Assembly: GCA_903828565.1 (NCBI GenBank)
Contig: CAIKMQ010000020.1
Coordinates: 1 to 64,000, forward strand
DNA: 64,000 nucleotides
From: an uncultured Leptolinea sp.
GTDB lineage: Bacteria; Chloroflexota; Anaerolineae; Anaerolineales; Anaerolineaceae
Direction of reading: 5' to 3'
The position numbers were made by a program, and so were the translations under genes. The notes under the pieces were generated by a model. It saw only the letters and a list, made by a program, of their open reading frames with translations. It did no database searches and had not been told where the DNA came from. This document shows positions 40,552 to 42,313 of the stretch, one piece after another (position 1 is the stretch's first letter; each line of letters opens with the position of its first letter).

Positions 40552-40591
40552 AAAAAAGAAGCCAGGTTGATACCTGGTTTCTTTTTTTTCT
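40552..40591. terminator. Terminator between pnp and the DsrE gene
   Basis: AGAAGCCAGGT-tgat-ACCTGGTTTCT with a preceding A-run and a following run of eight T. It can serve pnp and, on the other strand, the converging DsrE-family gene. Confidence 0.92.
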
Positions 40592-40625: not shown

Positions 40626-40976
40626 TCAATAGACCAGGACTTTATCAGCTTCCACTGTCCATTCTACTTGCAGTTGGAGGGAGCCCATTTCAATCCCATC
40701 CGTCAGATCCTCAAGCCCGAACCCGCGGGCTTCACAACAGGATCTTCAGGTAGCCACCCGGCCTTTACCCGCCAGGGATCTCACCATCCGTTCGATATTG
40801 TAGTATCCATCCGGTGTTTTCTGGCCTTTCCGTGCGCAAGCCACGCCGTCCGCTGTTAAGAAGACGCACACCTCAGAATCCTCCCTCTTTGCCAGGGACA
40901 TGGCCAGTCGAAGCGCGTTGTAAGGGCGTTCATCCCCGTAGGGGCTATTGTTGATTACAAACAGGTATTTTTGCAT
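40626..40976 (-). CDS. DsrE-family protein with predicted selenocysteine (TGA at 40748-40746)
   Basis: DsrE-type proteins carry sulfur on a reactive Cys in sulfur-relay and redox systems. The first 76 residues (FVINNSPYGDERPYNALRLA, VACARKGQKTPDGYYNIERM) match the family, then TGA occurs. The same frame continues for 39 codons with RSCCEARGFGLEDLTDG and VEWTVEADKVLVY, the normal C-terminal half, and stops with TGA at 40628-40626, giving 116 residues, full length. The internal TGA sits at the first Cys of the family's CxTC motif, making a UxxC pair with the Cys three residues on. A SECIS-like hairpin follows directly. AAAGG lies 8 bases before ATG. A nonsense mutation is the alternative but does not explain the position or the hairpin. 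Sec machinery genes are not in the window. Confidence 0.88.
40705..40748 (-). promoter_or_regulatory. Bacterial SECIS-like hairpin with UGA codon
   Basis: Reading the minus strand from UGA (40748-40746): AGAUCCU (40745-40739) pairs with AGGAUCU (40711-40705), a six-base bulge follows, then AAGCCCG (40732-40726) pairs with CGGGCUU (40719-40713), closing the loop CGGGUU (40725-40720). The apical loop begins 20 bases after UGA and has a G among its first two bases, which fits the accepted bacterial SECIS pattern. All of it lies inside coding sequence, as bacterial SECIS elements do. Confidence 0.85.
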
Positions 40977-41069: not shown

Positions 41070-41729
41070 TTGTCACGGCAGGATAAAGAGCAGTTATTCC
41101 GGTACTTCGGTTTTATCGGTAGCGCCCTGGCAAATCCACACCGGTTGGAAATGGTGGACCTGCTGGCACAGGCTCCACGGACGGTGGAGGAGTTGGCAAA
41201 GATGGCAGAGTTGAGTTTTGCCAATACTTCCCAACACCTGCAGGTGCTAAAGCGTGCCAGGCTGGTTTCGTGTCAGAGGGAAGGGAAGAGTATTCGGTAT
41301 TCACTTGCTGATCCGCTGGTGGCAGTATTATGGGTGGATTTGCGGCGGGTGGCACAATTACGGTTGGATGAAATTGAACCGGTGATGGACCGTTACAGGG
41401 CACACCGGCATGATCTGGAGTATGTGTCTATACAGGAGGTCTGGCAGGGAATGCAGCAGGAGGAGATTGTGCTGGTGGATGCCAGGCCAGAGGAGGAATA
41501 TGCCGCCGGGCATCTCCCCGGAGCGATATCATTGCCGGTGGACGCGATCCCCATGCGGATGCGCGACCTGCCAATGGGCAAAACGATAGTCACCTATTGC
41601 CGCGGCCTGGTCTGTGTGGATGCAGATGATGCCTCCATCCTTCTGTCTGCGTACGGGTATCCCGTCAAACGGCTGGAAGCAAGTGTAGTCGAATGGCAGC
41701 TTGAAGGATTGGGGATCGAGAAGGGTTAA
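41070..41729 (+). CDS. ArsR-family transcription regulator fused to a rhodanese domain
   Basis: 219 residues, TTG start with GGGAGG 6 bases upstream. Residues 1-95 are an ArsR winged helix (GSALANPHRLEMVDLLAQAP, TVEELAKMAELSFANTSQHL, VLKRARLV). Residues about 115-219 are a rhodanese domain with VDARPEEEYAAGHLPGA and the active loop TYCRGLVC, catalytic Cys177. Such fusions are expected to sense reactive sulfur or related oxidants and repress their own locus. It is divergent from the DsrE-type selenoprotein gene, which points to a common sulfur or selenium/redox role. Confidence 0.92.
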   Translation: MSRQDKEQLFRYFGFIGSALANPHRLEMVDLLAQAPRTVEELAKMAELSFANTSQHLQVLKRARLVSCQREGKSIRYSLADPLVAVLWVDLRRVAQLRLDEIEPVMDRYRAHRHDLEYVSIQEVWQGMQQEEIVLVDARPEEEYAAGHLPGAISLPVDAIPMRMRDLPMGKTIVTYCRGLVCVDADDASILLSAYGYPVKRLEASVVEWQLEGLGIEKG

Positions 41730-41746: not shown

Positions 41747-42313
41747 TCAGACAACCCGCCGGTTAAAATGCAACCAGGTGGATGTATGTGAGCGATCCGT
41801 ACCATCCCCCCTGGATACCAGCTCCAGGCTCGCTGAAAGAGCAGCAACATCCTCAACGGTGATACCCGGAAGGCTAATGTTGTTGCCTGTATCAATAAAA
41901 CCGTAAAGCAGGTAAGATCCCCCCGGGGCCAGCAGCCGCAGCAGATTCTGTTGATACGCAAGCTTCTCGTATTTCACCAACCCGTGAAAACAACCCACAT
42001 CCAGGATCAAGTCGAAGTGTCCCGAAATATTCTGGAGGCGGCTGACTGAATCTATGAAGAAGTGGATCTCGAGCCCGGCTACCCGGGCTTTTTGCCGTGC
42101 CTGGCGGATGCTGCGTGGGATGAAATCCACACCCGTCGTCTGCCAGCCATTTCGGGCGAGGGTGAGTGCATTCGTACCCGTGCCACACCCAAGGTCAAGC
42201 GCTTGTCTGGGTGGATTCTGCTGGATGAACTGCAGTAATTCCGGCGGCGATATGCCGGTATCCCAGGGTGGGTGAGTGAAAGAAGCCAGCCAGAATCGCA
42301 GGAAAGAATTCAT
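41747..42313 (-). CDS. SAM-dependent class I methyltransferase
   Basis: 188 residues. The SAM-binding motif is ALDLGCGTGTNALTLARNGW, followed by TGVDFIPRSIRQAR and ILDVGCFHGL; the set resembles TehB/thiopurine-type small-molecule methyltransferases. Substrate unknown. Its -10 box (TATAAT, 42325-42320) is only 6 bases before the ATG, so the mRNA is probably leaderless. Divergent from the EF-G-like gene. Confidence 0.87.
   Translation of the reverse strand: MNSFLRFWLASFTHPPWDTGISPPELLQFIQQNPPRQALDLGCGTGTNALTLARNGWQTTGVDFIPRSIRQARQKARVAGLEIHFFIDSVSRLQNISGHFDLILDVGCFHGLVKYEKLAYQQNLLRLLAPGGSYLLYGFIDTGNNISLPGITVEDVAALSASLELVSRGDGTDRSHTSTWLHFNRRVV

Follow-up and report, generated by a model that had tools for sequence, protein, structure and literature searches.

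DsrE-like selenoproteins with a UxxC motif have been in print since 2005 (PMC1088965, PMC1794560, PMC2398784, PMC9312934, PMC13188914). Two such sequences with a bacterial SECIS are reported from the Sargasso Sea (PMC1088965), one from Desulfovibrio vulgaris (PMC1794560), and 19 'DsrE 2' plus two 'DsrE 1' sequences from GOS (PMC2398784); the kind is also tabulated in PMC9312934 and PMC13188914. According to the latter, a 2026 review, the functions of such families are still largely uncharacterised, and it mentions neither Chloroflex nor Anaerolin nor ArsR. A different protein, linked to selenium use, is YedF; it is of SirA-DsrE type and has the motif CGXC (PMC5322559).

Outside the selenoproteins, DsrE homologues are described as proteins that may carry sulfane sulfur, and a relay is said to run through rhodanese, TusA and DsrE (PMC9918477). 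The same source describes clusters in S. aureus (cst) and B. licheniformis (yrk) in which a DsrE homologue stands with SQR, a rhodanese, a persulfide dioxygenase and a regulator for sulfane sulfur.

The gene considered here lies in a stretch of 64,000 nucleotides from an uncultured Leptolinea sp. (Chloroflexota, Anaerolineae; GCA_903828565.1, contig CAIKMQ010000020.1), hereafter the window. Its product has PF02635 and the UxxC motif in common with the published DsrE-like selenoproteins and thereby falls under their definition, so that the novelty of kind suggested in the title of an earlier note on this DNA is not supported. What is new is a clade, well supported, within a kind of selenoprotein already known, and its gene context makes the function testable. 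In descriptions of the published proteins we did not find them placed in Chloroflexi/Anaerolineae or beside an ArsR-rhodanese gene. The Chloroflexota clade (32 Sec rows in our tree, no Cys row) and its context are apparently unreported; a search of titles and the starts of abstracts, with most subscription papers outside its scope, found no description of either, nor, within the same scope, of an ArsR-rhodanese fusion linked to DsrE genes. For a family that has been listed for 20 years, the recurrent ArsR, rhodanese and SQR-like context offers a testable role, namely the handling of sulfane sulfur.

The gene and its product

Three features on the minus strand define the locus:

40626..40976, minus strand: DsrE/YchN-type selenoprotein gene (predicted), 116 residues with Sec77, stop TGA at 40628-40626
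40746..40748, minus strand: in-frame TGA, codon 77, predicted Sec77 of UxxC with partner Cys80
40705..40745, minus strand: predicted bacterial SECIS; outer stem 40745-40740/40710-40705, upper stem 40732-40726/40719-40713, loop 40725-40720 (CGGGUU)

From its ATG, the dsrE frame runs through 76 codons to the TGA at codon 77 and continues for 39 further codons to its stop. A plain listing of the open reading frames of the window shows dsrE as a 76-residue ORF; such annotation shortens the protein and loses its active site. Read through the TGA, the 116-residue product matches the Pfam DsrE profile over residues 2-115 (profile positions 1-115 of 116, E=2.2e-18) and scores 67 bits against a gathering threshold of 22.7; together with the fold of the model described below, this places it in the DsrE/YchN family. 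It also aligns end to end with E. coli YchN (1jx7, 117 residues; E=8.7e-23, 40% identity), a full-length homologue of the same fold which has Cys where the window protein has Sec: Sec77 and Cys80 align with the first and the second Cys, respectively, of the CKTC motif in YchN. Frame, profile and alignment thus bear out the earlier note, which had described a DsrE frame broken by TGA, continuing for 39 codons to a length of 116, with the TGA replacing the first Cys of a CxTC motif whose second Cys is kept. In an alignment of 21 chosen members of the family, residues 77 and 80 do not vary. An AlphaFold2 model built from that alignment has a mean pLDDT of 95.8; its best match in the PDB is YchN 1jx7 (TM 0.91), followed by chains of DsrEFH and TusBCD.

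The fold is therefore common to the window protein and to DsrE/TusD of these last complexes, but no DsrF/DsrH or TusB/TusC was recognised in the inspected neighbourhood of the window gene. Membership of the TusD group was rejected, since the product scores 31.4 bits against the TusD/DsrE equivalog TIGR03012, far under the cut-off of 89.25. A reading of the second TGA (40628-40626) as selenocysteine was likewise ruled out, because relatives stop at the same residue. An alternative genetic code was set aside because TGA also serves as the final stop of this gene and, counting duplicates, of 17 among the 39 TGA genes.

The hairpin and the selenocysteine machinery

The apical loop CGGGUU, of 6 nt, begins 20 nt past the UGA and sits atop an upper stem of 7 bp. 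The outer stem of 6 bp begins directly after the UGA and is predicted for the window alone; the consensus fold of the relatives contains only the core of the upper stem. The two stems, the six-base loop and the 20-nt spacing are as first described in the earlier note, which also had G in both of the first two loop positions; the first base is in fact C and the second G. The published bSECIS model asks for a loop of 3-9 nt, an upper stem of 4-16 bp, G in the first two loop bases, a spacing of 16-37 nt and an MFE of at most -7.5 (PMC13188914). The window hairpin conforms to it, with a loop of 6 that starts CG, a stem of 7 bp, a spacing of 20 nt and -10.0 kcal/mol for the upper hairpin. In a scan with our own implementation of the published rules, -7.5 kcal/mol was reached in 30 of 38 distinct TGA genes versus 13 of 86 distinct Cys genes. 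A scan of the window at Rfam gathering thresholds and a tRNA scan returned nothing.

Folding energy itself does not stand out: among 200 dinucleotide shuffles, 8 are as stable or more so, and randomising synonymous codons puts the hairpin at a z of -1.1. It was discarded as weak evidence for a SECIS. What lies beyond chance is the position-specific pairing across relatives, not the energy of the hairpin. Of the distinct TGA genes, 29 of 33 can form all five core pairs, versus none of 65 distinct Cys genes, for a stem that was picked after these sequences had been viewed; among sequences fetched later, the five pairs form in both new TGA genes and in none of 21 new Cys genes, which reach at most three. 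The Sec genes without the fixed stem number four of 33 (L026, L027, L090, L110). In the covariation test, which spanned seven pairs, 23 cells were altered on both sides, versus a mean of 10.8 in shuffles, and the score is 0.255 versus 0.144 in shuffles, with 0/500 as high in either case; two of the five covariation measures do not rise above the shuffles, namely pairs changed on both sides (95/500) and further pair types (208/500).

A search of the source genome for selA, selB, selC and selD, proposed in the earlier note, found all four, so that absence of selB or selC is not the case: tRNA-Sec scores 70.8 bits, SelB 331, SelA 515 and SelD 354, each above its curated cut-off. The SelD gene (L015, C9:15133-16065) has an in-frame TGA of its own, apparently near the N-terminus, and its product is therefore probably a selenoprotein itself. 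Ten of 12 other TGA-bearing relatives have tRNA-Sec at no less than 60 bits (7), SelB above cut-off (8) or both, the 60-bit threshold being used because tRNA-like matches crowd near the 47-bit gathering score. Neither marker is clear in G006 (87% complete) or G092 (about 640 contigs). SelB was above cut-off in all 15 further genomes with a TGA gene that were picked from those in hand, two of which (G264 and G545) look like one genome. Both markers also occur in five of seven relatives with the Cys form, G080 having SelB only and G125 neither; the machinery thus does not tell Sec from Cys forms in these relatives.

A TGA at the Cys site, a covarying hairpin, purifying selection after the TGA and the Sec machinery together make it very probable, at the level of sequence, that the window gene encodes a DsrE-family selenoprotein with Sec inserted at UGA 77. 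The insertion step would follow from established bacterial SelB/SECIS biology: when the ribosome reaches UGA 77, SelB with Sec-tRNA-Sec would bind the downstream hairpin, selenocysteine would be placed at the first position of the CxxC site, and translation would terminate at the second TGA.

Gene neighbourhood and possible function

In the window dsrE stands alone, with a PNPase gene (labelled from its sequence) convergent to it and an ArsR-rhodanese gene divergent. Two neighbouring features were recorded:

41070..41729, plus strand: ArsR-type HTH and rhodanese fusion, TTG start; Cys68, Cys177 and Cys182; rhodanese loop YCRGLVC
40562..40577, minus strand: terminator-like hairpin with T-run, lying between the genes for DsrE and PNPase; the only one found, and weak because shuffles hold a mean of 0.6

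The 93-bp intergenic region contains no perfect inverted repeat (arms of at least 5 bp, gap up to 8) and no sigma-70-like promoter. Beyond the ArsR gene, 41747-42313 (minus strand) encodes a class I methyltransferase, with Methyltransf_25 as best match and TehB and TPMT also above cut-off; methyltransferase-like ORFs lie near some other DsrE loci too. As to the operon context invoked by the earlier note, none is evident in the window, but operon-like arrangements do exist in some relatives; deriving the context from the window alone was rejected, as the operon is seen only there. A cst-like cluster would hold SQR and a persulfide dioxygenase-rhodanese, and neither is among the nearest neighbours here, PNPase and ArsR-rhodanese. 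Elsewhere the genome encodes one SQR-like protein (180 bits, 33% identity), and no clear rhodanese-metallo-beta-lactamase (rhodanese-MBL) fusion was found in it, the best match being partial at 45.6 bits.

Among the 31 Sec loci that hold the stretch 230-1200 nt upstream, 11 have an ArsR homologue there; the other distance bins together contain two hits, both in L090. Six of these 11 are ArsR-rhodanese fusions (L020, L030, L032, L033, L039 and the window). The 62 Cys loci have an ArsR hit in 8, 6 and 14 cases across three upstream bins within 4 kb. Fusion homologues that cover the rhodanese loop occur near DsrE in six Sec loci, the window included, and 26 Cys loci, and the CxxxxC loop is kept in all 32 of these linked matches. 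The recurrent clusters were annotated in part, the Pfam scan of relatives' neighbours covering the L033 copies and the L031 ArsR. The gene order in L033 is ArsR-rhodanese, DsrE-Sec, class V aminotransferase (cysteine desulfurase-like), SQR/FCSD-like flavoprotein, rhodanese-MBL and MFS; L030, L032 and L039 show regulator, DsrE-Sec, rhodanese-MBL and MFS, and an SQR-like flavoprotein lies directly downstream of DsrE-Sec in L025, L031, L035 and L040. Like the cst-type clusters, L033 joins rhodanese-MBL, SQR-like and regulator genes with DsrE. In contrast to them, the regulator is here of ArsR type and not of CstR type, the DsrE protein is a predicted selenoprotein, and the window has the regulator only.

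From family and gene context we propose, at about even odds, a YchN-like function in which Sec77 works together with Cys80 to carry or reduce sulfane sulfur. Sec77 would accept sulfane sulfur from persulfides or polysulfides, forming Se-S, and Cys80 would resolve this bond so that the sulfur is handed on or released as sulfide. The neighbouring ArsR-rhodanese protein may control dsrE expression by sensing sulfane sulfur at its rhodanese cysteines. A wider proposal can be made tentatively: in a Chloroflexota lineage, a sulfur-relay protein of the YchN/DsrE type may have become a carrier of sulfane sulfur that works with selenium, clade-wide and with an Se-S intermediate, often under ArsR or ArsR-rhodanese control and in some species coupled to SQR-like and rhodanese-persulfide dioxygenase genes. 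If true, DsrE-like selenoproteins would gain their first assigned role, and persulfides could be handled by a route based on Sec.

It is less likely, but still to be taken seriously, that the selenoprotein serves thiol-disulfide or peroxide reduction in the manner of a thioredoxin-like UxxC protein, and not sulfane sulfur transfer. The invariant 77/80 pair would permit a selenenylsulfide cycle, UxxC is a general redox motif (PMC1088965), and 20 of the 33 Sec loci have no ArsR, SQR-like flavoprotein or rhodanese-MBL nearby at E 1e-4, some of their contigs being short. This last count speaks against a general rule for the context and, like the lack of a clear rhodanese-MBL in the source genome and of an operator palindrome or promoter in the intergenic region, against the sulfane-sulfur function. 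Transfer of sulfane sulfur nevertheless agrees better with the best solved-structure matches, which are sulfur-relay proteins, and with the recurrent neighbours, which among those examined include the rhodanese fusion, the SQR-like flavoprotein and rhodanese-MBL.

Regulators of the ArsR family are often metal sensors. A selenoprotein that handles metal(loid)s or selenium and is induced through such a sensor would suit the five of 11 upstream ArsR genes that lack a rhodanese part, as well as the ORFs reading as P-type ATPases (named from sequence) near the gene in L029, L034 and L036. We consider this improbable, given that the rhodanese domain of the window regulator, with its cysteine loop, points to sulfur and that the ATPase cluster appears in just three of 33 Sec loci within 5 kb.

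Conservation of the TGA across relatives

Named loci encoding relatives were compared at codon 77, taking the 80 best out of 94 confirmed: 25 have TGA and 55 have Cys. In the alignment with Cys homologues suggested by the earlier note, every relative aligned at this codon has either TGA or a Cys codon, L122 not reaching the site. An in-frame UGA at the Cys position of the homologues is therefore kept across species. Among 151 genomes of relatives, 26 have a match and 13, the source genome included, have the in-frame TGA, in 14 matches; G039 also has a TAA. Among 400 genomes of the phylum, 29 have a match and five (six genes) the TGA, all of them the source genome or members of the same order. 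The same TGA is present in many other assemblies, including G256, a single-contig genome. Three assemblies have two TGA-bearing DsrE copies (L020 and L025; L128 and L153; L017 and L018). The 35 records from a plasmid search all have less than 60% identity.

All 33 distinct stop-bearing rows have TGA at the site, and none has TAA or TAG. Counting duplicates, 37 of the 39 TGA genes have exactly 39 codons between the TGA and the next stop; L029 (TAG after 31) and L115 (TAA after 23) differ. In L029 (8001-8345) the extra TAG lies eight codons from the end and may reflect an error or decay. Compared with the nearest relative, L017, dN/dS is 0.084 before the TGA (72 codons) and 0.058 after it (39 codons), ratios that are rough because dS is near saturation; by this measure, purifying selection on coding persists past the TGA.

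A tree built from 96 proteins groups all but one of the 33 Sec rows, and no Cys row lies among these 32. The fork has a support of 78/77 with L037 and of 100/98 for the 31 rows without it, in a tree whose alignment is short and in which many forks are unresolved. The idea that the TGA is a true stop, in a pseudogene, through an assembly error or before a functional truncated protein of 76 residues, can call on the plain ORF listing, on the further stops in L029 and L115 and on the fact that the selenoprotein is known here from sequence alone, but it is extremely improbable in view of the uniform use of TGA, a clade of 32 free of Cys rows, the Sec machinery of the genome and, on which grounds the pseudogene was rejected, the selection after the TGA and a hairpin that accompanies TGA and not Cys.

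The named rows of the Sec clade are labelled Chloroflexi/Anaerolineae, except L019, labelled Pseudomonadota, and L023, which is given as Brevefilum fermentans with no phylum. L019 comes from a MAG, and its place inside the Chloroflexota clade may reflect transfer or mis-binning. The 33rd Sec row, L090 (Marinimicrobia), lies outside the clade on a long branch, where joins may be false. Its genome and relatives (101 genomes) include four with the TGA form, that of L090 among them, with a hairpin of different shape. L157, L158, L159 and L160, from relatives of the Marinimicrobia genome, make up a second Sec-DsrE lineage, in which the hairpin that follows the TGA has another shape.
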